Source: Streptomyces sp. NBC_01750 (GTDB lineage: Bacteria > Actinomycetota > Actinomycetes > Streptomycetales > Streptomycetaceae). From it: 64,000 nucleotides of DNA. This document shows positions 1,598-61,014 of this stretch, in pieces. Positions within the stretch are counted from its first letter, which is position 1; the number at the start of each line of letters is the position of its first letter. Where the stretch lies: positions 1,924,001 through 1,988,000 of the forward strand of contig NZ_CP109137.1 in the NCBI RefSeq assembly GCF_035918095.1, in the 5' to 3' direction. The notes below the pieces were generated by a model. The model made no database searches. It had not been told where the DNA came from and saw only the letters and a program-made list of their open reading frames with translations. A program made the translations under genes and the position numbers.

Positions 1598-1611
1598 GGG
1601 TCGAACGGCCC
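1598..1611. promoter_or_regulatory. DosR-like box (GGGTCGAACGGCCC)
   Basis: A 14-bp imperfect inverted repeat 124 bp upstream of the minus-strand Usp at 1474. It fits GGGNC-N4-GNCCC exactly. Regulator assignment is inferred from resemblance to the mycobacterial DosR box. Confidence 0.5.
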
Positions 1612-1619
1612 CAGTGACG

Positions 1620-1701
1620 CTCGAGTCAGCCAGCCCGACAGCGGCGCGTCGAGCACCGCATCCGCTCTTACCGGGTTGTACGCCGACACAGCCGTTGTCA
1701 T
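1620..1701 (-). pseudogene. DUF4389-type protein, N-terminal remnant
   Basis: From ATG 1701 the frame reads MTTAVSAYNPVRADAVLDAP then LSGWL. This matches the first ~25 residues of the intact DUF4389 membrane protein at 44842-45495 (MTTTPAAYRPVRVEAALDAP). The similarity then stops and the frame runs into the box region. Only this start survives; the membrane segments are gone. It shows that a second copy of that gene once stood here. Confidence 0.6.
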
Positions 1702-1770
1702 GACCGTCAGCTGGTGCCAGCCGTGGTGGCCTCGTTGCCGAACGGTTTGGTACCGCTCGCCGTCCAGACA

Positions 1771-1784
1771 GGTCCGGTCGGCCC
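1771..1784. promoter_or_regulatory. DosR-like box (GGTCCGGTCGGCCC)
   Basis: A GGNCC-N4-GGCCC variant 136 bp upstream of the plus-strand Usp at 1921. Together with the 1598 box it divides the divergent Usp intergenic region. Confidence 0.5.
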
Positions 1785-1920
1785 TGGCGTCGCGTGGGCG
1801 GGGCGGGAAGGCTGGTATAGGAGCGCCAGCATTGCGACGACGTTGGCCGTCCGGGGACCGGCCTGCGACGCGCGGACGCCGTTGGCGCCGGTGACACCCC
1901 CATCGAAAGGGGAAGACGAC

Positions 1921-2793
1921 ATGAATCGGCCCGTCGTAGCAGCAATCGATGGTTCGCCGGCCAGCCTGGCGGCGGCGGACTGGGCGGCGAGGCAAGCTTT
2001 GTACCGCAAACTGTCGCTGTCCTTGGTGCACGTGAGTCCCGAGCGTCCCTCAGGAGAGGCAATACCGGTCTCGACCGCCGCGCCGCGGGACGGGGCGTCC
2101 CGGCTGATCTCTGAAGAGGCTCGTCGGGACATGGTCCACAGTGAGCTGGACATCTTGACGGTCCAGTTGGAGGGAAATCCGCGCGAGGTGCTTCTCCGTG
2201 AGTCGGCCGGTGCTGAAATGCTGGTACTCGGTTCGCGACCTCTCAGGGGTTTGGGGGGCTTCGTTCTTGGGGGCCTGGGTCTGCACCTGGCTGCTCACTC
2301 GGAACGGCCGGTGATCATCGTTCGACAGCCGGAGGAGGCCGAGGGGGGTCGTGTCGGGGAGTCCGTCCATGCTCCGATCATGGTGCTGGGCCTCGATACC
2401 GAGAATCAGGCCGACGACTTGATTGACTTCGCCTTCCACGCAGCACAGGCCGCTGGGGCCAGCCTCCGCATCGTTAGCGCGGCGGCTCTGCCGGTCTTCC
2501 CGCTTCACCATTTCGTGCCGGTGAGCCCCGAGGAGAGGGTTCGGCTGGAGGAGCGCGAGCGCCCGGCGCTGGAACGAGCGCTTGAGGGATGGGCCGAGAA
2601 GTTCCCAAAGGTGAAGGTCGACACCGCGATCGTCGTGGGGCATGCCGATGAGGTGCTCGTCGATGAGTCCCGGGGCGCTGACGTTGTCATTGTGGGACGT
2701 CGACGAGCCGTTGGCCCACATCATCTCGGAGCCGTCGCTCACGCGGTGGTTCATCACGCGCCGTGCTCGGTCGCGGTGGTTCCGCACAACTGA
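1921..2793 (+). CDS. Universal stress protein, two UspA domains
   Basis: A 290-residue tandem Usp. Domain 1 opens MNRPVVAAIDGSPASLAAAD; domain 2 opens near residue 157 (IMVLGLDTENQADDLIDFAF) and ends AHAVVHHAPCSVAVVPHN. The first-domain nucleotide motif is altered (GSRPLRGLGGFVLGG: proline replaces the second glycine), so ATP binding there is uncertain. ATG 1921 is preceded by AAGGGGAAGACGAC; the frame extends further upstream, but homology begins here. It is divergent from the Usp at 596-1474. Confidence 0.93.
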   Translation: MNRPVVAAIDGSPASLAAADWAARQALYRKLSLSLVHVSPERPSGEAIPVSTAAPRDGASRLISEEARRDMVHSELDILTVQLEGNPREVLLRESAGAEMLVLGSRPLRGLGGFVLGGLGLHLAAHSERPVIIVRQPEEAEGGRVGESVHAPIMVLGLDTENQADDLIDFAFHAAQAAGASLRIVSAAALPVFPLHHFVPVSPEERVRLEERERPALERALEGWAEKFPKVKVDTAIVVGHADEVLVDESRGADVVIVGRRRAVGPHHLGAVAHAVVHHAPCSVAVVPHN

Positions 2794-2875
2794 GTACGAC
2801 ACAGACGCCGCCTTGGACAGTGCAGCCCGGTGGTGACCTGGCAGGGGCAGATCAGTCCGGTCCGCGGCGGTCACG

Positions 2876-4071: not shown

Positions 4072-4448
4072 TCAGCGCACTGGTAGCCCGACATCCAGCT
4101 GCGCGCCCACGTCCACGACCCGGCACAGCGCGGGCCAGCCGGACGAGCCGATCGATCAGCGAGCTGTTGGGGACGGTGCCGGTCAGAGTGACGGCGCCGT
4201 CCTGGACACGTACGTCCAGAGCTGATGAACCGGCCGGGATCAGACGGGCGACCAGTTCGCCGCGTACCTTCTCGGCAATGTCGGCGTCCGGGCGGAGACA
4301 GATCTTCAGCAGGTCGCCCCCGCTGACCACGCCCTTGAGGGCCCTTGTCGTCCACGACGGGAAGCCGCTTCAGACGGCCCCGGCCCATGAGCCGGGCGGC
4401 GCCGGCGATCGTGGCGTGCGGCGGCGCCGTAATGGCCGGGACCGTCAT
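4072..4448 (-). pseudogene. CBS-BON protein, 5'-truncated and frameshifted
   Basis: The upstream frame reads MTVPAITAPPHATIAGAARL, then MGRGRLKRLPVVDDKG: the second CBS repeat. One extra base near 4340 moves the frame to VVSGGDLLKICLRPDADIAE and a BON domain (VQDGAVTLTGTVPNSSLIDR). Another shift near 4120 is needed to reach VVDVGAQLDVGLPVR and the stop at 4072-4074. The first CBS repeat is missing. Confidence 0.75.
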
Positions 4449-4714
4449 CCTCGGTCACCGGGCCCCGGCCGGTGGGCGGCGAGGCGTTTGCGTGCCTCGG
4501 AGTACGTGTCCGCGTCGATCTCGCCGGAGGCGAAGCGGCGGTCAAGGATCTCCTCTGGCGTTTCCCTCGGTGTCTTCCGGGGGTCCGTGGCGTCGTGGCG
4601 ACCAGCCGAGTGCTGCGTCAGGCGCACGACCGCCCACACCACAAGGCCGATCAACGCGATCCACAGCAGCGGCATCAGGGTCATCCAGGCCCAGCCACCA
4701 TTCCAGTACGTCAC
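4445..4714 (-). CDS. Small membrane protein with SHOCT domain
   Basis: An 89-residue protein: one transmembrane helix at ~10-32 (MTLMPLLWIALIGLVVWAVV), a polar linker, and a C-terminal SHOCT motif at ~53-80 (EEILDRRFASGEIDADTYSE). SHOCT modules are short helical tails of unknown role, often on membrane proteins. The start is GTG 4714 with AGGAGG nine bases upstream. Box 4792-4805 lies 77 bp before the start, the same distance as for several Usp genes, so it probably belongs to the same regulon. Confidence 0.85.
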   Translation of the reverse strand: MTYWNGGWAWMTLMPLLWIALIGLVVWAVVRLTQHSAGRHDATDPRKTPRETPEEILDRRFASGEIDADTYSEARKRLAAHRPGPGDRG

Positions 4715-4791
4715 CGTGGCTCACCTCCTAGGACTCCTCTACTCTCCACGCGTACCGGGAAGGGCGCCAGTGCCCACCGGCCTCGCTCCCT

Positions 4792-4805
4792 GGGCCGCTC
4801 GGCCC
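4792..4805. promoter_or_regulatory. DosR-like box (GGGCCGCTCGGCCC)
   Basis: An exact GGGNC-N4-GNCCC match 77 bp upstream of the SHOCT gene at 4714. A half-match (TGGCTGCTCGGCCC, 4821-4834) follows. The 375-bp gap to the CBS gene at 5091 holds nothing else recognised. Confidence 0.55.
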
Positions 4806-5090
4806 TCTGTGGCCACTCGGTGGCTGCTCGGCCCCTCGCCGGTCACGGTGGTCGGGGCGCCGGGGATGCGGGTCTGGTCAGCCGCATCCGGCTGGGCTGT
4901 ACCGGAGCAGCCGTGACCTGGCGGCCGGCCTTCGCGCGGCGAAGGCACAGTGGTGGGTCGCCACCTCTTCGCTGGCATGCGTACGGGGTTCGCCGAACCC
5001 ACACTGGCCTTAAGGCGTTCCGGTCGGGGCGGGCCAGCTCTCTGTGCTTCCCGCGCAGATTGCGAGGCTCGAAGCTGGGAGGAGACGGTC

Positions 5091-5990: not shown

Positions 5991-6006
5991 CTCGGTCGAC
6001 GACCAC

Positions 6007-9154: not shown

Positions 9155-9187
9155 TTCGATGAACGTCAACATAGACATTTGTCGAAT
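9155..9187. promoter_or_regulatory. Probable ArsR operator 1
   Basis: A 33-bp element between the divergent Cys-rich and arsO-like genes. It begins TTCGAT and ends TGTCGAAT around the core GTCAACATAGA. 25 of 33 bases are shared with the element at 10288-10320 over the arsR start. The outer arms form an inverted repeat. Confidence 0.65.
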
Positions 9188-9201
9188 TGGAGGAGTTTTT
9201 C

Positions 9202-10261
9202 ATGGAGCACGTCGACGTCGCACTGATCGGTGGCGGCCAGTCGGGGCTCGCCACGGCACACGCCCTCATACGTCAGGGCCTCAGGCCGGTGGTGCTGGAG
9301 GCGCCTGAGCGGGCGGCCGGCTCGTGGCCGCGGTACTACGAAAGCCTCACCCTGTTCTCGCCAGCCCGGTACAGCTCCCTGCCCGGCATGCCCTTCGGCG
9401 GCGGTGCCCCCGGCCGGTATCCGCACCGCGACGAGGTCATCGACTACCTGACTGCCTACGCCTCCCGGCTCGATGCCGACATCCGCACCGGGCACCGCGT
9501 GACAGAGGTGCGCGCCGAGCCGCGCGGCTTCGTGGTCGGGCCTGGAGGGCGGCGACGAGCTGGCAGCGCGGGCTGTTGTTGCGGCATCCGGCACGTTCGG
9601 CCGCCCCCACCGTCCGACGCTGCCGGGTCTGGAGGGCTTCACCGGCACGGTGCTGCATGCCGCCGAGTACCGCAGCACCGCGCCGTTTGCCGGGCAGCGG
9701 ATCGTGGTGGTGGGCGCCGGTAACTCAGCGGTGCAGATCGCCGTCGAACTGGCCACCGTGGCACGGGTGACGCTCGCCGGCCGCCACCCGGTGAAGTTTG
9801 CGCCGCAGCAGATCCTCGGCCGGGACCTGCACTTCTGGCTGCGGCGGACCGGCCTGGACACCGCGCCGCTCGGCCGCCTCCTGAGCACCCCGCCCGCTCA
9901 GCCGGTGATCGACGACGGCCGCTACCGCGCCGCCCTCGGCGTCGGCATGCCGGACCGGTGCGCGATGTTCACCGGCATCGACGGCAGCAAGGTGACGTGG
10001 GCGGAAGGGACGGTGGAGGAGGTGGACACGATTCTGCTGGCCACCGGCTACCGCCCCGACCAGCCCTATCTCACCGGTCTCCGCGCGCTGGACGACGCCG
10101 GGCACCCCCGCCACCGCGACGGCCTCTCCCCGGTGCACCCGGGTGTGGCGTTCGTCGGGCTGGAGTGGCAGCGCAGCCTGTCCTCCGACTCCCTGCGCGG
10201 CGTCGGCCGGGACGCCGCCCGCTTCGCCCGGCGCCTTTCCGCCCACCTGACCCGCCGCTGA
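9202..10261 (+). pseudogene. ArsO-like flavoprotein monooxygenase with one frameshift
   Basis: The first frame encodes an FAD-binding start (DVALIGGGQSGLATAHALIR) and RYYESLTLFSPARYSSLPGM. Near 9540 an extra G shifts the frame, and the rest continues correctly: ELAARAVVAASGTFGRPHRP, then the NADPH motif IVVVGAGNSAVQIAVELATV, to the stop at 10261. Such proteins (ArsO) are common in actinobacterial ars clusters. The single shift in a G run may be real or a base-calling error. ATG 9202 has GGAGGAG upstream. Confidence 0.7.
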
Positions 10262-12395: not shown

Positions 12396-12573
12396 CGCCC
12401 ACGCGACAACATACGGATCACGTCGTAGGCGCGGAGGGCGCCGGTGCGGACGGAGCCGATGGTCCTCCAATGAGATGAACGTTTGTACGTAGTTGGTGCG
12501 CGTGGTGGGCGCCAGGCGGGACTGTTGGGGGCATCCTGGAGGAGCCAGAGGCGGCCTGCCGAAGGGAGTCAGT

Positions 12574-14236: not shown

Positions 14237-14900
14237 CCCGCGGAGGAGGGAACCCACAGTTACATCGTTCCGCCAGGGGCACACGGACTGGTTCCGGGAC
14301 CCGACGGGGCACGAGGAGGCGCCCTGGCTGATGTGAGCTCCGCAGTCTGAGCAGAGCTTCGTCGTCCCGGGCGTGCCAGCAGGCTCGCCTGATCCACTAC
14401 AGCGTCCTCTGGCCGCCAACGTGCTCCCACACGACCAGGCCGACAAGCCTCCGAAGCACGGCTGGCTGACGTCGGGTCAGAAATGTCTGGAGGTACACCC
14501 GGGAAGACGTCACAGCGTAGCTTCCGCGAAAGCGGCCCTCCGCCCCCGCCAAGTCCTCGTCCCACCGCGGCGAACAGCACACGGTGCCCAGGTGAGCGCC
14601 CGGCCTCCGCCCGGCGGTGACGGCTCATCACGCGGAAGAACCGCTGTGAGAAACAGAGGTTGACACGGCGCTTCGGGGACCGTTCGGCCCTGCCGCGCGC
14701 ATCCGCAGCAAGCGATGCTGGAGGCACGGTAGTCCGCGGTCCTCGAAACCTCCGGGCGCCCTGCTCAGATGGGCCCGCGAACGTCGCGACGGGGCCACGG
14801 GCACAGCCAAGCAGTCGGTACCCATGGCATCACCCGTTGTGCCGACGCATTCCCGGGACCTCGGGCAGGTCGACGCGGTCCTCAACCTGAGGAGCAACAC
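14237..14900. other. Gene-poor interval before the SPFH gene
   Basis: No convincing gene is seen. A minus-strand stretch near 14300-14370 reads KLCSDCGAHISQGASSCPVG, zinc-ribbon-like, but without a supported start or family. One 14-bp box lies at 14677-14690, with TTGACA at 14660-14665 just before it. Confidence 0.45.
14677..14690. promoter_or_regulatory. DosR-like box (GGACCGTTCGGCCC)
   Basis: A GGNCC-N4-GGCCC variant 210 bp upstream of the SPFH gene at 14901. That is further than at most other genes, so its target is less certain. Confidence 0.4.
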
Positions 14901-17639: not shown

Positions 17640-18157
17640 TGGAGCGCGCCACCGCTTAGGACCGCCTGCCGGAGGTGGTGGGGTGAGGTCAGGGCAGTTC
17701 CCTGTACGCGCCGTTGCCCAGTGGGTATCAACCGACGCAGTCCTGCGGGGGGAAAGCCCTGCCCTGCAACGGTCCCTTATTCCGGCCTGACCTGAAGGTC
17801 AGCCTTGGAACTGTTGAGGTCGCATGCTGAGGTGTCGCCCATTCGCGGCTGAAGCCCGCAGCTCAATGACGCTGAGTGAGCAGTCAGGGGGCGACCTGAT
17901 CATCCCCTCGACAAGCGCAACGGCAAGGCGCCCAGCGTCGCCAGCATTCGCCCTCGGCCGCACCCTTTGGCCGTGGGACCGCCGGCCCTCCCCGCCAGGC
18001 CGAACGTCACTGGTCGCCGGAGCGGCGCAGTGCTGTCATGGGTAGGGAAGACGGCGTGGACGAGCACGGCAGGGCCGCGGAGGCCGGCGCGCCGCGTCGT
18101 CCGCCCGGGCAGTCCGACCGCGGCTGCCTCGTCGCAATGCGGAGGAGGGCCGATGCC
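17640..18157. other. Intergenic stretch with one box
   Basis: Apart from the box at 17975-17988 I see only a small hairpin, TGACC-TGAA-GGTCA (17788-17801). No coding frame with family resemblance and a start site was found. Confidence 0.45.
17975..17988. promoter_or_regulatory. DosR-like box (GGGACCGCCGGCCC)
   Basis: An exact GGGNC-N4-GNCCC match 169 bp upstream of the CBS-BON gene at 18158. The distance is longer than at most targets. Confidence 0.45.
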
Positions 18158-19829: not shown

Positions 19830-19902
19830 GGCTGGCTCCCTGGAGGAATAGGGGGACGGGCCGACGTCTCCCACAGTGGTCGACCCTTGCCGCTCTGCTC
19901 AG

Positions 19903-19936
19903 GGGCCACAGGTCCCTGCCCGGGGCCGGTGGGCCC
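19903..19936. promoter_or_regulatory. Tandem DosR-like boxes, 20 bp apart
   Basis: GGGCCACAGGTCCC (19903-19916) and GGGCCGGTGGGCCC (19923-19936) both match GGGNC-N4-GNCCC exactly. They start 20 bp apart, two helical turns, and end 73 bp before the Usp start at 19829. Confidence 0.65.
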
Positions 19937-20033
19937 GGGACGGCACCTGCGCTCCCACGAAGAGCCCCTCCCGCCGCGACCGAGTCGTCAGCGGGGACTG
20001 TCCCGATCGGGCGGCGGTGCCAGGCGGGCATCC

Positions 20034-20069
20034 CGGCCGAACGGGTCCGCATGCCGGGCCGACCGGCCC
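20034..20069. promoter_or_regulatory. Second tandem box pair
   Basis: CGGCCGAACGGGTC (20034-20047, degenerate) and GGGCCGACCGGCCC (20056-20069, exact). They lie between the adhE remnant and the Usp at 19829, about 205 bp upstream of the latter. Confidence 0.45.
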
Positions 20070-20129
20070 TCGTCGAACAGCTCCCGGCTCCGTGAGATCG
20101 AAGGACCCGAGGGCGGCCGGAGCGGCCGT

Positions 20130-20446: not shown

Positions 20447-20464
20447 AGGGGCCAACAGGCCCCT
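20447..20464. promoter_or_regulatory. DosR-like box within an 18-bp inverted repeat
   Basis: AGGGGCC-AACA-GGCCCCT has perfect 7-bp arms around a 4-base centre. It is the most symmetrical box here. It lies 80 bp before ATG 20545 and upstream of the divergent adhE remnant. Confidence 0.65.
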
Positions 20465-20544
20465 GGGAGCGCCCCGGGGCCTTCGGAACAGTAAAGGCGG
20501 CACTGGGCACGGAGCCCGTTGACGACAGACAAAGGGGGTGTGCC

Positions 20545-21215: not shown

Positions 21216-21352
21216 GGGGCGTGGGCGGCAGGGCCACAGGCAGTGGCCAGCACATGGTCAATGAGCGCCCGGCCACCTTGCGACCTGGGGTTCCGTCGCC
21301 CGCGAGAGCGGTGGAGACCCACACCAAGGGGCGTGCATCCGTCCCGCGTTGT

Positions 21353-21366
21353 GGACCGAAGGTCCC
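21353..21366. promoter_or_regulatory. DosR-like box (GGACCGAAGGTCCC)
   Basis: The core GGACC-GAA-GGTCC is perfectly symmetrical. It lies 130 bp upstream of the hibernation-factor gene at 21497. Confidence 0.5.
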
Positions 21367-21496
21367 TCCTGAGTGGCCGAACAGCCCGCGAAACCCAGGT
21401 GGCCAGGTACTGGTGGGCCCGGGGCTGGGGCCGGACGGCACTGACCTCGGACGGCGGGCGGAAGCAAGGCTGGGGACGACCAAGAAGGAGTCTTCC

Positions 21497-30495: not shown

Positions 30496-30573
30496 CGTGC
30501 CCACCGCCTTCCGTTCGGCTGAGGGGAGACGTTCCCGTTGTCACCGTCGCACTCGGGGCGGGCCGCTCGGGAG

Positions 30574-30607
30574 GGGCGGTTCGGCCCTGGTACGGGCTCT
30601 TCGGCCC
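30574..30607. promoter_or_regulatory. Tandem DosR-like boxes, 20 bp apart
   Basis: GGGCGGTTCGGCCC (30574-30587) and GGGCTCTTCGGCCC (30594-30607). Each has one change at the fifth base. They are phased by exactly 20 bp and lie 78 bp before the Usp start. Confidence 0.6.
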
Positions 30608-30706
30608 AACCCCGCCGCGAACCTTCGCACCCGGATCTCTCGGCACCGTCCGCCGGGCGGAGCGGCGCTGTCGGAGGCGGGGCCGCCGCTGAACCGTCGA
30701 CTCGGC

Positions 30707-33005: not shown

Positions 33006-33098
33006 TCCGCCCTCCCTTCGGCGTCGTGACTGTCACCGTCACGGATCAAGCCTGTCAGGAGCCTGGCATCCTCGGATGAGCCGTCCGGCCCCCCTTTG

Positions 33099-33131
33099 GG
33101 GCCGATCGGGCCGAGACCGGCCGAACGGCCC
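33099..33131. promoter_or_regulatory. Tandem DosR-like boxes, 19 bp apart
   Basis: GGGCCGATCGGGCC (33099-33112) and CGGCCGAACGGCCC (33118-33131), each one base off GGGNC-N4-GNCCC. They lie 93 bp before the CBS-BON start at 33005. Confidence 0.55.
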
Positions 33132-33198
33132 TCCGACTCGGGCTTCGCGCGCGTGGCAGGTTGGGGGTCAGCGACGCTTCGCAGGAGCGGTGACGCTC

Positions 33199-33489: not shown

Positions 33490-33536
33490 GTGCCGATCGG
33501 GCCGGTGAACCCCCCACCGAGGGACCGATCGGCCCC
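33490..33536. promoter_or_regulatory. DosR-like boxes upstream of alcohol dehydrogenase
   Basis: GTGCCGATCGGGCC (33490-33503, weak) and GGGACC-GATC-GGCCCC (33521-33536), a strong near-perfect 16-bp inverted repeat. The strong one ends 79 bp before ATG 33616. Confidence 0.6.
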
Positions 33537-33541
33537 TGTGC

Positions 33542-33585
33542 GTCTGTTGTCTCTCCACCACAGGCTGGGTGGAGAGACAACAGAC
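33542..33585 (+). promoter_or_regulatory. 18-bp perfect inverted repeat in the adh leader
   Basis: GTCTGTTGTCTCTCCACC (33542-33559) is repeated inverted without mismatch at 33568-33585, with an 8-base loop (ACAGGCTG). It begins five bases after the strong box and ends 30 bases before the start codon. In RNA it would form a very stable hairpin close to the ribosome-binding site; as DNA it could be an operator. Confidence 0.75.
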
Positions 33586-35365: not shown

Positions 35366-35400
35366 GGGCCTGTCGGGCCGCGGACAGGGCCGCCCGGCCC
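35366..35400. promoter_or_regulatory. Tandem DosR-like boxes, 21 bp apart
   Basis: GGGCCTGTCGGGCC (35366-35379) and GGGCCGCCCGGCCC (35387-35400, exact). They lie 131 bp before the cyclic-nucleotide-binding protein gene at 35532. Confidence 0.55.
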
Positions 35401-35531
35401 TTCCCCAGCGCCGATCGGGTGACTGAAGCTGAGCACAGACAGCGGCCCCGCAGGAGAAACCGGCGAGTGCGGCCCGGACGGCTCACCGGTCATCAGCGAG
35501 GAAGCCGCGCGCTCGAAACGGAGGCCCAGCA

Positions 35532-36665: not shown

Positions 36666-36890
36666 GGCATCAGCACGACAACCTCGGTCCGGGCACGTCA
36701 AGGCGAAAAGGGCCCATCCGCTTCTCGCGGATCCTGATTGCGTGGTGCACGGCCACGAGCCGCTTCTCCACGTCCTCGTCAGGGCCCTTTCCGTCAATTC
36801 CATGGAAACACGGGGCGTGCGCTGCTGCCAGGGCCGAACAGTCCCACCTTCGGTGCCGTTCGGCCCCACCTCTCCCATACCGCTTGACGA
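36666..36890. other. Convergent gap with box-like repeats and an unclear small frame
   Basis: Box-like repeats lie at 36831-36845 (GGGCCGAACAGTCCC) and 36853-36866 (GTGCCGTTCGGCCC). Downstream on the minus strand a frame reads VEKRLVAVHHAIRIREKRMG, then PFRLDVPGPRLSC, with a possible start in another frame at ATG 36803. It may be a broken small gene of this regulon; I do not recognise it. Confidence 0.4.
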
Positions 36891-41349: not shown

Positions 41350-41417
41350 GGCTCCTCCTCGCCGAGTTCCATCGGGGATCACTCCTCACGGTGTCACCAC
41401 GAGATCAGCATGGAGAG

Positions 41418-41454
41418 AGCCACAGGGGCCCCTGACAGGGCCGAAGGTCCCTGT
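41418..41454. promoter_or_regulatory. DosR-like box (ACAGGGCC-GAAG-GTCCCTGT) with partial neighbour
   Basis: The exact box GGGCCGAAGGTCCC (41438-41451) extends to 20 bp of near-symmetry. A half-matching site (41418-41431) and AGGGGCCCCT (41424-41433) precede it by 20 bp. It lies 88 bp before the Usp start at 41349. Confidence 0.65.
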
Positions 41455-41487
41455 CCGGCCGAGGCTGATCCATTCGGTCCGCTCCGA

Positions 41488-41501
41488 GGACCTCTCGGCC
41501 C
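41488..41501. promoter_or_regulatory. DosR-like box (GGACCTCTCGGCCC)
   Basis: Lies 80 bp before the CBS-BON gene at 41582, in the divergent region shared with the Usp operon. Confidence 0.55.
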
Positions 41502-41581
41502 TGTGCATGAGGGCGGGATTCGTTCCACGCTGGCATTCAGGACGGCCTGATCCGGCAGGTGAAGGAAAGGACTGGCGCGCC

Positions 41582-44245: not shown

Positions 44246-44279
44246 CGGACAACTGGCCCTAGCTAGGGCCGACCGGCCC
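44246..44279. promoter_or_regulatory. Tandem DosR-like boxes, 20 bp apart, with 16-bp palindrome between
   Basis: CGGACAACTGGCCC (44246-44259) and GGGCCGACCGGCCC (44266-44279). The inner half-sites join into the perfect palindrome GGCCCTAGCTAGGGCC (44255-44270). They lie 59 bp before the ABC remnant at 44339 and start four bases after the CBS-BON stop. Confidence 0.6.
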
Positions 44280-44338
44280 TGTCGGAGCAGCCCGCCCGGC
44301 CCTCGTGTCACCGCCCATACCGGGCCCAGCCTGGAGCC

Positions 44339-45495: not shown

Positions 45496-45522
45496 TCAGA
45501 GGAGGTCCCGCGCGGGGCACCA

Positions 45523-45556
45523 GGGCCGGTCGGTCCCATCGGGGGCCCCTCGGCCC
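45523..45556. promoter_or_regulatory. Tandem DosR-like boxes, 20 bp apart
   Basis: GGGCCGGTCGGTCC (45523-45536) and GGGCCCCTCGGCCC (45543-45556, exact). They lie 72 bp before the first gene of the Usp-nitroreductase-ATPase-TrkA operon. Confidence 0.65.
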
Positions 45557-45628
45557 CTCCTGCGACAGCGGCCGGACCAAGACGCTGGAACTGTGGCCGC
45601 ACGCGCGGCCCCTGAGGAGGTCCGCACC

Positions 45629-52842: not shown

Positions 52843-54558
52843 GTGGCAAGCTCGGAGGACGGCCGCGTACGGCTGCCGCATCTAAGGCTGGACGAGCTGC
52901 TGGAGGAGCTGCAGGCCCGCCTGGACGCGGCGCGTGGCACCCGGGACCGGGTGCACAGCCTGCTGGAGGCCGTGCTGTCGGTCGGGCGCGAGCTGGACCT
53001 GGAGCAGGTGCTGCACAGCATCGTCGAGGCGGCGGCCGTACTGGTCGACGCCGAATACGCCGCGCTCGGTGTGATCGCGCCGAGCGGGACGTCTCTCTCG
53101 CAGTTTCTGACGGTCGGGGTCAGCGACGAGGAGATCGCCGCGATCGGCCCGTACCCCTCCGGGCACGGCATCCTCGGCGAGCTGATCAGGAATCCCCGGC
53201 CGCTGCGGCTGCCGAAGATCTCCGAGCACCCTTCGTCGTACGGTTTCCCGCCCCATCACCCGCCGATGAACACCTTCCTCGGCGTCCCGATCCGGGTGCG
53301 CGACCACGTCTTCGGCAATCTCTATCTGACTGAGAAGCGGGGCGGGGCTCAGTTCGACGATGAGGACGAGTCAGTGCTGTCCACCTTGGCTGTCGCCGCC
53401 GGGGTGGCGATCGACAATGCCCGGCTGTACGAGGAGGTCAAGCTGCGCGAGCGCTGGCTGCGCGCGAACGCGGACATCACGCACAGCCTTATGTCGGGCA
53501 GCCCCCGCAGCGAGGTTCTCACTCTGATCGCCGAACGGGCCAAGGAGATCGCGGGCGCCGAACTGGCCGTGGTGGCGCTGCCGATGCCCGACACCGGCAC
53601 GCTGGCGATCGAGCTGGCGATCGGGCCGAACGCGGACGCTCACCGTGGGCTGGTGCTGCCGGTGGAGGGAAGCCTGAGCGGCGCCGCTTTCACCGCGGGC
53701 GCGCCGGTAACGAGCGCGGATGTCACCCACGACGAGCGTGTTACGGCCGGGCCGCCGCGGTTCGCCGGGCTGGGGCCCGCGGTGGCTGTGCCTATTGGCA
53801 CCGCGGACGGGGTACGAGGAGTGCTGCTGCTGGCCCGTGAGGCGGGCGCTACGGTCTTCGCGGACGAGGAGACCGACCCGCTGCGGAGTTTCGCCGGTCA
53901 GGCGGCGGTGGCGATGGAGCTGGCGGAGCGACGCAGCGACGCGGAGCAGATCGCCTTGCTGGAGGACCGCGACCGGATCGCCCGTGACCTGCACGACCTG
54001 GCGATCCAACGGCTCTTCGCGACCGGCATGACACTCCAGAGCGCGGGGCGTCTGATCGAGGACTCCCCGGCTTCGGAGCGTGTGCTGCGCGCGGTTGACG
54101 ACCTGGACGAGACCATCAAGATCATCCGCTCGACCATCTTCGGGCTGCGCTCACATGAGGCGGGGACCGGGCAGGGCCTGCGGGCACGCGCCGTGCGGAC
54201 GGTCGGAGAAGCGGCTCCGGTGCTGGGCTTCGCGCCGAGCCTCCGGATGGAAGGGCTGCTGGACACCGACGTGCCGCGGGAGATTGCCGACCACCTGGTG
54301 GCGGTTCTCTCCGAGGCGCTGACCAATGTCTGCCGCCATGCGCACGCCACCCGGGCTGACGTGGCCCTGGAGACGGACGGACGGGAAGTGGTGCTGACGG
54401 TCGCCGACAATGGTGTGGGGCTCCCTCCCGACCGGCGCAGCAGCGGCCTGGCCAACATCTCGGAGCGGGCCAAGCAGCTGGGCGGCGAGCTGGAGTTGAC
54501 CTGCCCGTCCGGTGGCGGAACCTCGCTGGTCTGGCGCGTACCCGTAGGCACCCCCTGA
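52843..54558 (+). CDS. DevS/DosS-type heme-GAF sensor histidine kinase
   Basis: A 571-residue kinase: GAF-A (~55-200), GAF-B (~215-365), HisKA_3 with phospho-acceptor His384 (IARDLHDLAIQRLFATGMTL) and HATPase_c (ALTNVCRHAHATRADVALET, VADNGVGLPPD). His139 in HHPPMNTFLG and Tyr161, 22 residues later, match the heme ligand and distal tyrosine spacing of mycobacterial DosS (His149/Tyr171), so it should sense O2, NO, CO or redox. GTG 52843 follows GGAGGGAGCAGCG. Its response regulator is not in this window. A weak box-like site, GCGCCAACTGGCCC, lies at 52764. Confidence 0.92.
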   Translation: MASSEDGRVRLPHLRLDELLEELQARLDAARGTRDRVHSLLEAVLSVGRELDLEQVLHSIVEAAAVLVDAEYAALGVIAPSGTSLSQFLTVGVSDEEIAAIGPYPSGHGILGELIRNPRPLRLPKISEHPSSYGFPPHHPPMNTFLGVPIRVRDHVFGNLYLTEKRGGAQFDDEDESVLSTLAVAAGVAIDNARLYEEVKLRERWLRANADITHSLMSGSPRSEVLTLIAERAKEIAGAELAVVALPMPDTGTLAIELAIGPNADAHRGLVLPVEGSLSGAAFTAGAPVTSADVTHDERVTAGPPRFAGLGPAVAVPIGTADGVRGVLLLAREAGATVFADEETDPLRSFAGQAAVAMELAERRSDAEQIALLEDRDRIARDLHDLAIQRLFATGMTLQSAGRLIEDSPASERVLRAVDDLDETIKIIRSTIFGLRSHEAGTGQGLRARAVRTVGEAAPVLGFAPSLRMEGLLDTDVPREIADHLVAVLSEALTNVCRHAHATRADVALETDGREVVLTVADNGVGLPPDRRSSGLANISERAKQLGGELELTCPSGGGTSLVWRVPVGTP

Positions 54559-54583: not shown

Positions 54584-55042
54584 TCACGGGGCGGACTGCT
54601 GCTCGTGCGACGCGCGCGCGTCCGAACGGAATTCATTGCGGTCCACAACACGTCCGGTCACCAGCTCGGGACGGATCCGGATGAATACTCCGTCCGGCAC
54701 CGGCACCCACGAGCGCGGTCCGGTCCGCAGCAGCCGTTCGCGCTCCCCCGGGTCAGTGACCTGGTTCGCCGGGCCCATGACGACGACACTCCACCCGGTG
54801 CCGGCCGCCTCGTCGAACCGGTCCACCTCGAACGCCACCACGGCCTGGCCCACGGCGCGGGCCACGCGGGAGGCCGCCGAAGTTCGCAGCAGCACGGAGA
54901 AGTCGTGGTCCAGGGAGAAGTTCACCGGCAGGACCGCAGGCAGGGCCTGGTCCGTGTAGACGATGCGGCCGATCGACACCTGCCCCAGCAGACGCAGGCA
55001 CTCCTGCCGGTCGAGCTCTCGGAAGCCGTCGTGGTGGTGCAT
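54584..55042 (-). CDS. Pyridoxamine 5'-phosphate oxidase-fold protein (Rv0080-like)
   Basis: A 152-residue split-barrel flavin-binding protein. ECLRLLGQVSIGRIVYTDQA and PAVLPVNFSLDHDFSVLLRT form the barrel; VVAFEVDRFDEAAGTGWSVV is the usual family signature. Relatives bind FMN or F420, and Rv0080 is in the DosR regulon. ATG 55042 follows AAGGATGGACGCC. It is convergent with the sensor kinase, and two boxes lie 127-162 bp upstream. Confidence 0.88.
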   Translation of the reverse strand: MHHHDGFRELDRQECLRLLGQVSIGRIVYTDQALPAVLPVNFSLDHDFSVLLRTSAASRVARAVGQAVVAFEVDRFDEAAGTGWSVVVMGPANQVTDPGERERLLRTGPRSWVPVPDGVFIRIRPELVTGRVVDRNEFRSDARASHEQQSAP

Positions 55043-55168
55043 GGCGTCCATCCTTGGGGCGGTCCGCCCGGATTGAGGTAGGGCACGCAAGGCCTCGTCG
55101 ATACCTCCCTTGCCCCGAACTGCGGTTGTATGCACCCAACGCTCCGGCGTCGGCCGGTGCTTGGGAAT

Positions 55169-55204
55169 GGGCCGAGAGTCCCTGGCAGGCGGGGCGAACG
55201 GCCC
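55169..55204. promoter_or_regulatory. Tandem DosR-like boxes, 22 bp apart
   Basis: GGGCCGAGAGTCCC (55169-55182) and GGGGCGAACGGCCC (55191-55204), both exact matches to GGGNC-N4-GNCCC. Upstream of the PNPOx gene at 55042. Confidence 0.6.
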
Positions 55205-55306
55205 GCGCCGGGCGGTGTGAGCAGCAATGTTCACGGATAGAAGCGCCCGCGCGCTCTGGTGCCCATGGCGCGCGGGTGCGAGATGTGCGGCACGGGCCGT
55301 CGGCCC

Positions 55307-55720
55307 TCAGCCTTGCCGCACGGGGATGGTCCTGGTACCCGACTTCGGCACCGGCACCGGATGGTGAGCACGCCCGTCCTTGAGGTCGGCAGTCGCATCG
55401 TCGCCGCGCGCTCCGGCGGGCAGCCGGACCGAGCGGGCGAAAGTGCCGTAGCGGATTCTGTGTGGTGCCTCTCGGTCGTCTCCTCGCTGCGCGCAGGGTC
55501 AGCACACCCTCCGCGACACTGATCTCGATGTCGCTGTCGGGGGGATGCCCGGGAGCTCAGCCCGTGAGACGTACGTACCGTCCGTGAAGCTCTCCTCGAT
55601 GCGGATGCTGTGCAGTCCGGGGATCTGGTGCAGACCCGGAACTCCGCCCTCGACCCACCCGAACGGGTCCGGCAGAAGTGGTGGCCAGGCAGGCAGCCGT
55701 TCGATCATTGCACTCATCAT
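55307..55720 (-). pseudogene. Hsp20/alpha-crystallin (HspX-like) small heat-shock protein, frameshifted
   Basis: The first frame (MMSAMIERLPAWPPLLPDPF ... IRIEESFTDGTYVSRAELPG) is the start of an HspX/Acr-type chaperone. Further pieces in other frames give DIEISVAEGVLTLRA, TFARSVRLPAGARGDDATAD and SGTRTIPVRQG with stop 55307-55309. At least three small shifts separate them. HspX is a hallmark DosR-regulon protein. The promoter box 60 bp upstream is intact. Confidence 0.8.
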
Positions 55721-55779
55721 GCGCTCCCGCGGGTGGGCCTACCGTCGCTTCCAGCCTCCCGCTCCTGGTCCGTACTCCA

Positions 55780-55793
55780 GGACCGACCGGCCC
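55780..55793. promoter_or_regulatory. DosR-like box (GGACCGACCGGCCC)
   Basis: Lies 60 bp before the broken hsp20-like gene at 55720, which suggests that this gene belonged to the regulon before decaying. Confidence 0.55.
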
Positions 55794-55816
55794 CGTCGGG
55801 GACCGGCTGGGGCGGA

Positions 55817-56447: not shown

Positions 56448-57362
56448 TCAGCCCTCGTGCGCCCGAGGCGTCGCGTCCCGGTGGGGCACGACAGCCACTG
56501 GGCAGGGCGCGTGGTGCAGGACCGCGTGGGCGACAGGTCCCAGACGTGAACCGATCGCATGCGTTGGCCTGCGGGCACCCACCACCAGCAGGTCTGCGTC
56601 CGCAGCCGCCTCCACCAGCGCCCCTGCAGCGGACACCGCCCGGACGATGTGCTCCGTCACCGCAAGGTCCGGGAACTCCTTGCGGACTGGGGCGACGATG
56701 CGAGCTGTCTCAGCGAGCTGCGCCGAAGCGATTTCACTCGCGTCGTCGAACATCGGCGCCATGCTCCCGACGTTCTGCAGGAACATCCACGCACTCAGCA
56801 CACGTAGCAACGCCTTGCGCTGCTGGGCGGTCCACGCGGCGAAGCGGAGCGCGTCGAGGTCCCGGTCGTCCCGGATCCCGACAACCACGACGCCCGTCGC
56901 CGCGGGCTCGGCATCGCCCCGCACGACGATCACCGGGCCCTCCGCCCGCGCCGCGACCCGCAGACCCACCGATCCCAGGAGCAGCGCTGAGAATCCGCCG
57001 AGCCCGCGTGAGCCGACGACGATCGTGCCGTCGGCTCCGGCCGCCGTCAGCAGGGACTCCGCAGCACCTGCTTCGCTGAGTGTCATAGCCACAGGTACGC
57101 CTGGGAAAGCACCGCGCACCTCGCCGGCCGCCCCGTCCAGCAGGCCGCCGCCGGAGTCGTGGACGAGCCGAACGGCGTCAGAGGACAAGTGCCGTGCTCT
57201 GGCCTCAGTATCTGTCGCGTGAACGATGTTGAGAGGCTGTTTCCGGGCTTCGGCCTCGCCTGCGGCCCAGAGCACGGCCTTCGTCGCATGGGCCGAGCCG
57301 TCCGTGCCGACCACTACGGGCCCGGGTGTCTCCGTACCCGGCGCGGAAGCAATGTTGGCCAT
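56448..57362 (-). CDS. Universal stress protein, two UspA domains
   Basis: A 304-residue tandem Usp. Domain 1 (GPVVVGTDGSAHATKAVLWA) has GSRGLGGFSALLLGS. Domain 2 (GVVVVGIRDDRDLDALRFAA) ends [18 protein letters not shown]. It is most like the Usp at 40444-41349. ATG 57362 follows GAGGAGGAGGACACC. Boxes lie 75 and 96 bp upstream. Confidence 0.93.
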   Translation of the reverse strand: MANIASAPGTETPGPVVVGTDGSAHATKAVLWAAGEAEARKQPLNIVHATDTEARARHLSSDAVRLVHDSGGGLLDGAAGEVRGAFPGVPVAMTLSEAGAAESLLTAAGADGTIVVGSRGLGGFSALLLGSVGLRVAARAEGPVIVVRGDAEPAATGVVVVGIRDDRDLDALRFAAWTAQQRKALLRVLSAWMFLQNVGSMAPMFDDASEIASAQLAETARIVAPVRKEFPDLAVTEHIVRAVSAAGALVEAAADADLLVVGARRPTHAIGSRLGPVAHAVLHHAPCPVAVVPHRDATPRAHEG

Positions 57363-57436
57363 GGTGTCCTCCTCCTCGTGTCGCGGTTGGCGGGGGGACA
57401 TATGCTGACGCTGCCACGGTGTCCGCGAGGCCGGGA

Positions 57437-57472
57437 GGGCCGCTGAGGCCCGACTCAGGGGCCAAACGTCCC
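57437..57472. promoter_or_regulatory. Tandem DosR-like boxes, about 21 bp apart
   Basis: GGGCCGCTGAGGCCC (57437-57451, 15-bp variant) and GGGCCAAACGTCCC (57459-57472, exact). Upstream of the minus-strand Usp at 57362. Confidence 0.55.
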
Positions 57473-57708
57473 CCCTCCGCGCAAAGGAGCCGCCCCCCGG
57501 TGCCCGTGCTGCCCGCGACAGCAACGAGCTTGGGGCGGCCGCGACGGCCAACCGCCACGGCGTCGTCGAACACACCCGGCGCCATTGAAGCCATCGAACT
57601 GGGCAACGGACTTTGCTGTGCGGGACCGTGCTGTCGGTGCTCTCTGGCATCGGTCCGCATCGGAGCTGTCGCCGCTTCAGCCGTGGCAGCCGAACGGGTA
57701 CCAGTGTT

Positions 57709-57722
57709 GGGCCGACCGGCTC
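57709..57722. promoter_or_regulatory. DosR-like box (GGGCCGACCGGCTC)
   Basis: One mismatch to GGGNC-N4-GNCCC, 87 bp before the Usp gene at 57810; GGCCC follows shortly after at 57725. Confidence 0.45.
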
Positions 57723-57809
57723 TCGGCCCGGCTGCCCCGGTTCCGAGATGCTGAAGGGCATGGGCCGGTTCAGGTGACCGTGCCCTCTACCCGGTACGGA
57801 GGCAGCCTC

Positions 57810-58682
57810 ATGGCCCGCGCAATCGCTGTAGGAGTGGACGGTTCCCCGGAGAGCTTGGCCGCGGCCGACTGGGCAGCCCGCGAAGCGACACTTCGGGGGC
57901 TGCCGGTCCGGATCGTGCACGCCTGGCTCTGGCAGCCCCTCGACGTGCCCGTGGTCCAGGACAGGGAGGCACTGTCGCAATCGGCGAACGCTGTGGTGCG
58001 GGAAGCCGAGACGCATGTGGCCGCCCGGTATCCCGACCTGTCGATGTCCGCCGAGGTGGTGCCCGACACCGCGGTTGCGGCGCTGCTCGGCGCCGACGAG
58101 CAGGCCGAGATGCTGGTATTGGGATCACGGGGGCACGGCGCCCTCGTCGGCTTCATGCTCGGCTCGTACGGTCAGCAAGTGATCGCTGCCGCCACGCGTC
58201 CGGTGGTCTCGGTCCGGGCGCAGGCAGGGGACGCAGGCGAGCCGGAGGGCGCTGAGATCGTCGTGGGGCAGCAGGGCGGGGCGGAGTACAGCGACGCGGT
58301 GCTGGGATTCGCCTTCGAGGCCGCGGCGGTACGGGGGGCGACCGTGCGAGCGGTGCGGGCCTGGAGTCTGCCGCCCGTCTTCGCCTACAGCCCTGGTTCG
58401 ATGCGCCTTGCCGACGAGGCAGGAGGGCTGGAACCGTTCGAGAAGAAGGCACTGGAGCAGGCACTCGCCCCCTGGCGCGAGCGGTTTCCGGACGTGCCGG
58501 TGATCGAGCATGTCGAAATCGGGAGCGCGGGGCAGGTGCTCCTGTCGGCCGCCTCTCGTGCGCGGTTGCTCGTGGTCGGCCGCCGCGCACGCCGCTCCCC
58601 CATCGGTACGCGCATCGGGTCCGTCGCCCATGCCGTCCTCCACCATGCGACCTGCCCCGTCGCGGTAGTTCCGCACGAATGA
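57810..58682 (+). CDS. Universal stress protein, two UspA domains
   Basis: A 290-residue tandem Usp. Domain 1 (MARAIAVGVDGSPESLAAAD) has GSRGHGALVGFMLGS. Domain 2 (EYSDAVLGFAFEAAAVRGAT) ends HAVLHHATCPVAVVPHE. ATG 57810 follows TACGGAGGCAGCCTC. A D-lactate-dehydrogenase-like gene starts 109 bp after its stop on the same strand and has no clear box of its own, so the two may be co-transcribed. Confidence 0.93.
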   Translation: MARAIAVGVDGSPESLAAADWAAREATLRGLPVRIVHAWLWQPLDVPVVQDREALSQSANAVVREAETHVAARYPDLSMSAEVVPDTAVAALLGADEQAEMLVLGSRGHGALVGFMLGSYGQQVIAAATRPVVSVRAQAGDAGEPEGAEIVVGQQGGAEYSDAVLGFAFEAAAVRGATVRAVRAWSLPPVFAYSPGSMRLADEAGGLEPFEKKALEQALAPWRERFPDVPVIEHVEIGSAGQVLLSAASRARLLVVGRRARRSPIGTRIGSVAHAVLHHATCPVAVVPHE

Positions 58683-58791
58683 GAGCCTGCCGGCCTCCGT
58701 AACGTGGGGCCCCGCGCAGTGCCGGTTCATGCCGGCTTGGCACCACGCACGGCAGACTCCGCCGCATCCGCCGAAATCGAGGAGGACAGGG

Positions 58792-59790
58792 ATGGACATC
58801 ATCGCGTTCGGGGTGCTCGCCGATGAGCGCCCGCAGCTGGAGCAGGCGTTCGCCGACCAACACGCGGTGCGCTGTCTCGAACTGTTCCTCAACCCGGACA
58901 CCGCGCCGGCGGCCCGCGGATACGAGGTCGTCTCCAGCAGCGTCAATGACGTCCTGGACGCGGACGTCCTCGCTGCCCTCGCCGACGGCGGCACCCGGAT
59001 GATTGCCCAGCGCTCGACCGGCTACAACAACATCGATCTGGACCGGGCCAGGGAGCTGGGCCTGACCGTGGCACGAGTCTCCTCCTACTCCCCGTACTCG
59101 GTCGCCGAGTTCGCCTGGTCTCTCGCCCTGGCCCTCAACCGCCGTACCGTCCGCGCTGTCGGGCGCACCCGGGAGTTCGACTTTCGCCTCAACGGTCTGA
59201 TGGGCAGGGACTTCCACGACCGAACCGTCGGCGTCATGGGGACGGGAAAGATCGGCACCGCGTTCAGCCGCATCGCCCACGGTTTCGGAATGCGCCTGCT
59301 GGGCTGGGACGTGCAGGAGAACAGGGACTGCCTGGCACTCGGCATGGAGTACGTGGACAAAGAGCGCCTGTTCGGCGAAGCCGACCTGATCAGCCTGCAT
59401 GTCCCCCTGCTGCCCGCGACTCACCACATCGTGGACGCCGACGCCCTGGGAAGGATGAAAGGCGACGCAATCCTGATCAACACCAGCCGCGGCGGGCTCA
59501 TCGACGCGGCCGCGCTGGTGGCAACGCTGCGCGAGGGCCGACTCGACGGGGTGGGACTGGACGTCTACGAAGAAGAGGCCGGGGTGTTCTTCGTCGACCA
59601 CTCCCTGGAGGTGATGACGGACGACACCCTCGCCCGCCTAATGACCTTCCGGAACGTCCTGGTGACCTCCCATCAGGCGTACTTCACCAGGGACGCGGTC
59701 GGCCAGATCATCGACACTACGGTGCGAAACGTCGCGGACTATCTCGCCGGACGCACCAGCGACAACGTCCTCGTCCGACCCGAGGAGTAG
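58792..59790 (+). CDS. D-2-hydroxyacid dehydrogenase (fermentative D-lactate dehydrogenase type)
   Basis: A 332-residue enzyme. The NAD loop is GVMGTGKIGTAFSRIAHGFG; the catalytic arginine is in INTSRGGLIDAAALVATLRE, the glutamate in LDVYEEEAGVFF, and the histidine in VTSHQAYFTRDA. The VYEEE-FFxDHS segment is typical of LdhA-type D-lactate dehydrogenases, which reduce pyruvate and regenerate NAD+ without oxygen. ATG 58792 follows GAGGAGGACAGGG. Confidence 0.92.
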   Translation: MDIIAFGVLADERPQLEQAFADQHAVRCLELFLNPDTAPAARGYEVVSSSVNDVLDADVLAALADGGTRMIAQRSTGYNNIDLDRARELGLTVARVSSYSPYSVAEFAWSLALALNRRTVRAVGRTREFDFRLNGLMGRDFHDRTVGVMGTGKIGTAFSRIAHGFGMRLLGWDVQENRDCLALGMEYVDKERLFGEADLISLHVPLLPATHHIVDADALGRMKGDAILINTSRGGLIDAAALVATLREGRLDGVGLDVYEEEAGVFFVDHSLEVMTDDTLARLMTFRNVLVTSHQAYFTRDAVGQIIDTTVRNVADYLAGRTSDNVLVRPEE

Positions 59791-59967
59791 CCCACGGTCC
59801 GGCGCCTTGAAAGTAACTGCAGCGCCACGGCTGCGCGTTGTTCAGCAACGGGACGGCAGCAGCGTCCCGTCACACGCTCACCGGAGCCTATTTGGCGTGC
59901 TACCACATGCGGGCCCGTTTCTTCGGCCGTCAGGGGATCGTGGCCGTGGGAGGCACCCGGCGGCCAC

Positions 59968-60897
59968 TCACTGATCAGATGGAGTGATGCGGCGTCCCGT
60001 GAGGCGCGTCGGCTGGATCGACACCCACAGCTCGCGGTTGCCCCCTGCCCACGGTTCGGTGTGGGCCCGCTCGGCCAGCCGGCGCACGTCGTCGGGCTCG
60101 GTAACCGCCCGCGCGGGGCCGACGGCGAGCACGCTCCAGCCCCGGCTCATGGCCTCGTCCACATGGTCCACCTCGAAGGCGACGTCTGTTCCCACAGCCA
60201 CTGCCGGGCTGGAGCCAGGGGCGGTCCTGAAGAGGATCGCGTCGTCGATGACCTCGTAGTTCACCGGGATGACCGCCGGGCCATCGGGCGTGGATACCGC
60301 GACGCGCCCGACGCCATGTGTGGAGAGCCGGGAGCGGCATTCCTCCGCGGTCAGGTCCTGCAGCCGGGGGTGGAGGAGCGCCTGTCCCTGGCCGGGCGGC
60401 AGATCGATGCCGGCTCCGCGTAGGTCGGCGACCCTGGTCCCCAGGGCGCCGGCCAGCCTGATGAGAGTCGCCGGGCTCGGGTCGGCCGGCCGCTCTTCGA
60501 GATACTTCAGGTACGCCGGTGCCATTCCGGCGCGGCGAGCCGCTTCCGCCTGGGTAAGTCCCTGGCGTTTGCGTTCGAGGGCCACGCGCCGGCCGATGTC
60601 GCCGGGGTCGGGCGCTCGTTGTGACGGGGTCGTGTCGGACCCGGCGACCGCCTCCCCTCCTGAATCGTCCGTCCTCGGGAAGGACAGGTGTCGGGGCGCT
60701 TTGGGCCCGTGCTCGATGTGTTGTACATGCGCGTCGGGCCCGGGGAACACCAGCGTGATCCGTTCGGTATCCGACCAGCGAACGTCGTAGGGAGGCGTGC
60801 CGTCCTCGTGGTGGAGTCCGACGATCTCGCCGTCCCGTCCGGTTACGCCCGTGGTCGGGCTTTCCACCACGAGTTGATCACCGAGTTGGGCTCGCAT
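59968..60897 (-). CDS. DUF1918 - XRE helix-turn-helix - PNPOx fusion protein
   Basis: A 309-residue, three-part protein. DUF1918 (~1-60: MRAQLGDQLVVESPTTGVTG, LVFPGPDAHVQHIEHG); an XRE-type helix-turn-helix (~100-162: GLTQAEAARRAGMAPAYLKY, PATLIRLAGALGTRVADL); and a PNPOx split barrel (~180-305: GRVAVSTPDGPAVIPVNYEV, VAFEVDHVDEAMSRGWSVLA). The last part suggests a flavin- or F420-bound redox sensor attached to a DNA-binding domain. ATG 60897 has GGAAGG 13 bases upstream; a nearby GTG is too close. Two boxes lie 84 bp upstream. It could be a local regulator. Confidence 0.85.
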   Translation of the reverse strand: MRAQLGDQLVVESPTTGVTGRDGEIVGLHHEDGTPPYDVRWSDTERITLVFPGPDAHVQHIEHGPKAPRHLSFPRTDDSGGEAVAGSDTTPSQRAPDPGDIGRRVALERKRQGLTQAEAARRAGMAPAYLKYLEERPADPSPATLIRLAGALGTRVADLRGAGIDLPPGQGQALLHPRLQDLTAEECRSRLSTHGVGRVAVSTPDGPAVIPVNYEVIDDAILFRTAPGSSPAVAVGTDVAFEVDHVDEAMSRGWSVLAVGPARAVTEPDDVRRLAERAHTEPWAGGNRELWVSIQPTRLTGRRITPSDQ

Positions 60898-60980
60898 GAC
60901 CGTCACCGCCTTCCGGCTCATCGCACCCAACGTGCCACGCCCTAGCATGCCGACGCATGAGGCGACATGCCCTGCTGAAA

Positions 60981-61014
60981 GGGCCGACCGGACCTACATC
61001 GGGCCGACCGGGCC
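60981..61014. promoter_or_regulatory. Tandem DosR-like boxes, 20 bp apart
   Basis: GGGCCGACCGGACC (60981-60994) and GGGCCGACCGGGCC (61001-61014) are near-identical copies exactly 20 bp apart, 84 bp before the fusion-protein start at 60897. Confidence 0.65.

Follow-up and report, generated by a model that had tools for sequence, protein, structure and literature searches.

The palindrome AGGGCCGATCGGCCCT is bound in Streptomyces coelicolor by the response regulator OsdR, an activator of usp genes in the neighbourhood of its own locus (Urem et al. 2016, PMC5069765). According to the main text of that paper, phosphorylated OsdR (OsdR~P) binds these boxes in electrophoretic mobility shift assays and point changes in the box lower the binding; in promoter-probe experiments the uspA, osdR and SCO0207 promoters are expressed poorly or not at all without osdR (PMC5069765). 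At mycobacterial DevR promoters the site proximal to the transcription start point overlaps the -35 region, and binding to close-packed sites is cooperative (PMC3029386). Here we describe a 64,000-nucleotide stretch of the 8.98-Mb genome of Streptomyces sp. NBC_01750 (C1:1924001-1988000, the window), in which palindromic boxes recur upstream of stress genes. Very probably, in our view, these boxes serve an OsdR/DevR-type response regulator as operators within a Streptomyces dormancy/stress island.

The resemblance to the S. coelicolor OsdR regulon (SCO0204/SCO0203) is close. The 16-bp palindrome is the same, the island lies around osdR, the usp, alcohol dehydrogenase, PNPOx and Crp-like/cNMP targets overlap, and the osdR box of S. 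coelicolor lies ~80 bp upstream of the osdR start, as here (PMC5069765, main text). Unlike S. coelicolor, the nearest osdR and the window kinase do not form an operon, there are four OsdR-like regulators, and there are CBS-BON, SHOCT-like, Band-7 and hpf-like targets that are unnamed in Table 1 of PMC5069765. With the mycobacterial DevR/DosR regulon the island shares a homologous regulator and kinase, close-packed boxes and, putatively, a proximal box overlapping -35 and cooperative binding; box composition and organism differ, and the target set is mostly different (PMC3029386). Operator, regulator, kinds of target and kinship with DevR were all known before, and the link between OsdR and its operator is not new here because it has already been published for S. 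coelicolor. As far as the literature shows (main text of open-licence papers), the new features are the measured rule for spacing, the scarcity of T at -12 and the presence of several regulators; the terms 'transcription start' and 'spacing' are not found in the main text of PMC5069765.

Probable OsdR boxes in the window

The recurring boxes are confirmed as real. A weight matrix built solely from the 26 OsdR sites printed for S. coelicolor (Urem et al., PMC5069765) finds 20 boxes of at least 12 bits in the window that fit the published palindrome. The 58 control stretches from the same genome, 1160 kb in total, contain just 28, equivalent to 1.5 per 64 kb, the 22 stretches adjoining islands or the window (L001, L002 and L059-L078) having been excluded. 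First-order Markov simulations of the window (n = 100) give a mean of 1.16 such boxes, with a maximum of 4 per run. Given the chosen start codons, all 20 window boxes are noncoding (Fisher p 6.5e-12 for noncoding versus coding within the window), compared with 9 noncoding and 19 coding among the 28 of the controls. Six more boxes of this strength lie in the 20 kb downstream of the window, and none in the 20 kb upstream. The preliminary description had proposed that the repeats exceed chance, and the independent matrix bears this out; the boxes do not occur at equal density inside genes.

A gene finder trained on the codon usage of the window was replaced, and the second finder still missed several genes supported by Pfam, the search of which covered 53 window reading frames. 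Ten gene spans with hand-chosen starts were added to the coding mask. The choice of later starts followed the gene caller, the extent of Pfam domains or the position of ribosome-binding sites. If the longest open frames are taken instead, 5 of the 20 boxes (1770, 21427, 33521, 45522 and 57458) fall inside the 5' ends of frames, the Pfam domains of which start downstream of the boxes.

The boxes had originally been described as GGGNC-N4-GNCCC, with the variant GGNCC-N4-GGCCC, at 15 coordinates. A GC palindrome is present at every one of these. Ten fit the first pattern and three (33522, 41488 and 55780) the variant, and two strictly fit neither (30574, GGGCGGTTCGGCCC; 61001, GGGCCGACCGGGCC). 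By the matrix 19903 (<7.5), 55169 (8.4), 41488 (9.3) and 20449 (9.6 bits) are weak, and strong boxes absent from the earlier list start (as 16-mers) at 1770, 14676, 20055, 21427, 33098, 33117, 36830, 36852, 45522, 57708 and 60980. In all its forms, together with the reverse complement of the variant, the loose pattern occurs 28 times in the window, four of them coding, against 8.7 expected from 157 matches in the 1160 kb of controls (Poisson p 1.4e-7), and is thus only ~3-fold enriched. GGGNC-N4-GNCCC alone is found 590 times genome-wide, below the 889 of the same pattern read backwards, so that the loose pattern in IUPAC (International Union of Pure and Applied Chemistry) letters was dropped as a measure. 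The form GGGCCGNNCGGCCC occurs 29 times genome-wide versus 37 for its backward control, 10 of the 29 lying in C1:1928792-2034799. GGGCCNNNNGTCCC occurs 81 times genome-wide over both strands, scattered and rarer than its backward control.

The candidate boxes and the genes behind them are listed below in window coordinates, with scores in bits.

1597..1612, box of 11.6 before usp 596-1507 (-), which has no standard -10
1770..1813 (+), box of 16.5 with -10 AAGGCT (1808-1813); usp in open reading frame (ORF) 1714-2793, domain from ~1921
4741..4806 (-), box pair 4769 (8.6) and 4791 (13.3), 22 bp apart; -10 GAGAGT 4741-4746; SHOCT-like gene 4445-4714
14676..14719 (+), box of 16.0 with -10 GATGCT; Band-7/SPFH gene 14769-15743
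17974..18011, box pair 17974 (10.9) and 17996 (10.3), 22 bp apart; CBS-BON gene (start 18158), in whose direction the standard -10 is missing
19902..19937 (-), box pair 19902 (<7.5) and 19922 (12.4); usp 18960-19829
20055..20070, strong box of 17.2; no gene start at the usual distance
20448..20492 (+), box of 9.6 with -10 AACAGT; small gene 20545-20739, no Pfam match
21352..21471 (+), boxes 21352 (10.0), 21373 (7.8) and 21427 (14.3) with -10 AAGGCT; hpf-like gene 21497-22294
30543..30608 (-), box pair 30573 (15.8) and 30593 (8.1), 20 bp apart, with -10 GACGGT; usp 29620-30495
33049..33132 (-), boxes 33077, 33098 and 33117 (9.5, 13.7 and 14.5) with -10 CAGGCT; CBS-BON 32331-33005
33521..33566 (+), box of 14.9 with -10 CAGGCT; zinc alcohol dehydrogenase gene 33616-34683
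35386..35430 (+), box of 15.0 with -10 GAAGCT; cNMP-binding gene 35532-35996
36830..36867, box pair (12.3 and 14.3) with 22-bp spacing, flanked by convergent genes; no standard -10
41407..41452 (-), box of 17.0 with -10 CATGCT; usp 40444-41349
41487..41531 (+), box of 9.3 with -10 CACGCT; CBS-BON gene 41582-42208
44265..44280, highest-scoring box of the window (20.2), followed by the remnant-like frame 44339-44836; no standard -10
45522..45586 (+), box pair (14.9 and 10.2), 20 bp apart, with -10 GACGCT; usp 45629-46534
52843..54558 (+), DevS/DosT/OsdK-like histidine kinase with GAF domains, HisKA_3 and HATPase
55139..55205 (-), box pair 55168 (8.4) and 55190 (10.3), 22 bp apart, with -10 GAGCGT; PNPOx 54584-55051
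55779..55794 (-), box of 14.9 upstream of the short Hsp20-like frame 55499-55720 (label by eye)
57458..57473 (-), box of 13.2 upstream of usp in ORF 56448-58016; no standard -10
57708..57752 (+), box of 11.7 with -10 GATGCT; usp 57810-58682
60980..61015 (-), box pair (16.5 and 12.1), 20 bp apart; DUF1918-XRE-PNPOx fusion 59968-60948; no standard -10

Boxes are found upstream of Usp, CBS-BON, hpf-like, Adh, cNMP and PNPOx genes, as the preliminary description had it. Of its other gene labels DUF6458 is unconfirmed by Pfam, SHOCT falls just below the cut-off (25.4 versus 27 bits) and Hsp20 was assigned by eye only. The reported clustering of box-to-start distances is reproduced, with 13 of 21 site-gene pairs with an assigned start at 71-87 bp, and the estimate of about twenty promoters was roughly right; a gene is faced by both box and -10 in 14 of them (hand assignment, 21 rows). 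Two of the places said to lack the repeat indeed do so: no box of at least 7.5 bits lies between 22930 and 29512 in the persulfide stretch, and the nearest to vapB (start 17588) is at least 385 bp away.

Several window genes look frameshifted, by decay or assembly indels. Frame 44339-44836, behind the 20.2-bit box, appears by eye to join the start of an ABC ATPase to the end of a permease and has no Pfam hit. The Hsp20-like frame, again identified by eye (55231-55720), is seemingly broken into short frames despite a good upstream box, and a flavin monooxygenase-like gene (9187-10261) is possibly split over two frames. The boxes at 36830-36867 and 20055-20070 are perhaps associated with small RNAs, or are orphan sites.

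Promoter layout

The boxes stand at a fixed distance from a -10-like element. Among the 64 directions of window boxes with at least 9 bits, 15 have ANNNT at offset 23-25; other three-offset runs give 0-8, leaving aside the flanks of this peak and another maximum (11-12) around 43-46. Each palindrome contributes two directions to these statistics, which use only directions with complete flanks and count distal boxes too. The layout was re-tested on 80 loci (1.56 Mb) around osdR-like genes of Streptomyces, Kitasatospora, Actinacidiphila and one Actinomadura. ANNNT lies at offset 23 in 77 and at offset 24 in 81 of 690 directions, compared with at most 21 at other offsets, except for a second peak of 21-45 at 44-47. 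The second peak reflects the distal box of a pair, and word enrichment at fixed offsets first yielded mainly the second box. An expectation-maximisation fit over offsets 17-28 places 92% of -10 elements at two neighbouring offsets, with ~22% of 823 directions carrying a -10 element. Directions of identical sequence were counted once in this fit and in the -12 alignment, but not in the offset and pair counts or the clustered -12 test. The 80 loci stem from fewer than 80 genomes, some strains being present twice, and relatives are not independent, for which clustering is a partial remedy.

If -12 is assigned to the base preceding the A, the box extends from -50 to -35 with its centre near -42.5, 22-23 bases upstream of -12. 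No -35 hexamer was found between box and -10 in the aligned OsdR-type promoters. T occupies -12 in 3 of 174 promoters, compared with 10.5% T nearby (p 7e-6), and in 3 of 142 after clustering like promoters (p 1.3e-4); in this genome alone the count is 0/16, which is not significant (p 0.14). Promoters of the TTGAC type have T at -12 in 13/51 (9/18 with an 18-base spacer), and are too mixed for a clean control. Streptomyces housekeeping promoters carry the TANNNT motif at 80.4% of start sites, as reported in PMC4895711. The -11 A and -7 T of that motif are kept in the OsdR-type promoters, here by site selection, and the -35 hexamer and the -12 T set the two kinds apart. Where boxes are paired they lie 20, 21 or 22 bp apart in 11, 15 and 11 pairs respectively, and none of the remaining distances between 8 and 100 accounts for more than 5 pairs; the control stretches hold one box pair in all.

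The box thus appears to take the place of the -35 element at a fixed distance from -10, an anatomy suggestive of class II, activator-dependent promoters. We infer both OsdR binding and the start sites at the window promoters. Class II activation by paired dimers is proposed because the measured anatomy fits the data for both S. coelicolor OsdR and mycobacterial DevR. In such a mechanism a heme-GAF kinase of the OsdK type would phosphorylate OsdR upon low oxygen or redox change, and OsdR~P dimers would bind the paired boxes cooperatively, 20-22 bp corresponding to two helical turns. The proximal dimer would touch RNA polymerase as a class II activator, and promoters with neither a -35 hexamer nor the -12 T would be nearly silent unless OsdR~P acts. 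Whether this amounts to an anti-consensus code across Streptomyces we regard as evenly balanced. In such a code the box would replace -35 ahead of an ANNNT -10, T would be selected against at -12, and a second box would often lie two helical turns upstream. With the -12 T lost, promoters would stay off unless OsdR~P is present, and the code would be shared by several OsdR paralogues, each served by a different kinase.

Regulators, kinases and conservation

Four OsdR-like regulators are encoded in the genome, at C1:2007487+, 4772836+, 4794941- and 8010618-. They are 69-81% identical to one another, and other regulators reach no more than 46% among the matches listed (31 of 54 compared). The first, osdR1 (C1:2007487+), lies 19.5 kb past the window end, and its best solved relative is DevR (3c3w, E 5.3e-77 over 216 residues). 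It is preceded by a 20.2-bit box, one base off the consensus and 78 bp upstream of the first homologous codon. The DNA-reading helix is EKTVKN in all four, so that the four, with the same or nearly the same helix, may share one operator code. Around the other three genes there are 7, 6 and 5 boxes of at least 12 bits (C1:4.76-4.78, 4.78-4.80 and 8.00-8.02 Mb). The closest osdR genes in the named collection are from Streptomyces, with up to 87% protein identity. In a survey of the genus, a threshold of E <= 1e-70, which also admits a group of ~60% identity, gave between one and five matches per genome in 94 of 101 genomes. The regulator class put forward in the preliminary description is supported, the published OsdR consensus containing the same 14-bp core, and the identity of the window boxes as OsdR boxes is likewise supported by the sequence comparisons.

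GAF-A of the window kinase (52843-54558) matches DevS/DosT (2vzw, E 1.7e-47) and has HHPPM near 53257; heme binding is predicted. The HPPM histidine motif is present in four kinase matches among six stretches (window ~12994 and ~53257, L052 and L053). In 55 fetched loci with a kinase hit, regulator and kinase genes form 6 adjacent operons, 16 adjacent convergent and 2 adjacent divergent pairs, and are distant in 31.

A second DevS-like kinase gene in the window (12493-14236) is split over two frames (GAF; HisKA_3/HATPase) and is apparently broken. Two OsdR/OsdK-like pairs of this genome are convergent, tail to tail, rather than operons (L052, L053, L068 and L073), with one TAG inside the kinase match of L053. 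The control stretch L084 (C1:1100001-1120000) has boxes of 11-18 bits at 7051, 7269, 17499 and 17815, and is probably a further cluster of OsdR targets.

In the 80 loci, which were chosen for osdR and hence favour OsdR islands, osdR-like genes have a box of at least 12 bits 20-260 bases upstream in 67/79 cases (median 82), one locus being too short upstream of osdR and left out. Of 41 query proteins from the window, 26 had homologues in these loci, and 139/421 of the homologues are preceded, 20-200 bases upstream, by a box of at least 12 bits. The share is 0.43% among 6438 control stretches, each of 180 bases, and 1/29 among homologues of boxless window genes. Hits were set aside if they started after query residue 25 or if the DNA upstream was too short. 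Boxes precede homologues of PNPOx in 25/35 cases, usp45629 in 22/43, CBS43526 in 11/21, nitroreductase in 12/31, cNMP in 13/39, usp29620 in 16/45, adh in 9/29, the kinase in 9/55, CBSBON36018 in 3/38 and usp18960 in 0/6. The SHOCT-like, hpf-like and 20545 genes have no homologue in the 80 loci.

Alternative explanations

A number of observations weigh against assigning the boxes to OsdR. In the window no standard -10 was found for boxes 1597, 17974/17996, 20055, 36830/36852, 44265, 57458 and 60980, and two box places (20055; 36830/36852) have no obvious gene behind them. Two of the four osdR genes have only weak boxes, the best scoring 8.7 and 7.2 bits. An osdR-osdK operon like that of S. coelicolor was not encountered in this island, no DevS-like kinase match was found next to osdR1, and the window kinase is ~29-31 kb away from it. 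Elsewhere 12 of the 79 osdR-like genes have no box of 12 bits, and neither do 282 of the 421 homologues at the 12-bit threshold, many of which, unsorted, are inside operons or outside OsdR islands.

Could another regulator with a similar palindrome, a different NarL/LuxR protein or a dimeric activator, use these boxes? The genome has 54 LuxR-type domains, and some boxes do not have the standard layout. Yet the boxes are found by an independent OsdR matrix, they number 5-7 of at least 12 bits per 20 kb at the four OsdR-like genes versus 28 in all 58 controls, and osdR itself is so often preceded by one. We consider this explanation improbable. That the boxes are chance GC palindromes in a genome of 70% G+C, noticed by looking upstream of genes, is more doubtful still. 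It would account for the rarity of the loose pattern and of GGGCCGNNCGGCCC relative to their backward controls, and for the modest enrichment of the former in the window, but not for the matrix count or the confinement of those boxes to noncoding DNA, nor for a fixed pairing and -10 distance replicated in 80 loci; the coding/noncoding and spacing tests largely refute it. Finally, that the palindromes act in the transcript as RNA hairpins or terminators is hardly credible: they are GC-rich inverted repeats and the pair 36830/36852 does lie between convergent genes, but most boxes are upstream of the -10-like element, hence outside the transcript if the -10 is right, and a tandem phase of 20-22 bp suits protein dimers better.

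Implications

Our analysis shows that raw sequence is enough to recognise the published OsdR code in a further Streptomyces. It extends the list of likely targets to CBS-BON, Band-7, hpf-like and SHOCT-like genes, the last two from the window alone. In GC-rich genomes, where palindromes also arise by chance, the promoter rule helps to recognise the direct targets of OsdR, and the -12 rule bears on how activator dependence is built in. If OsdR paralogues do converge on these promoters, they would make one regulon answer several gas or redox signals.

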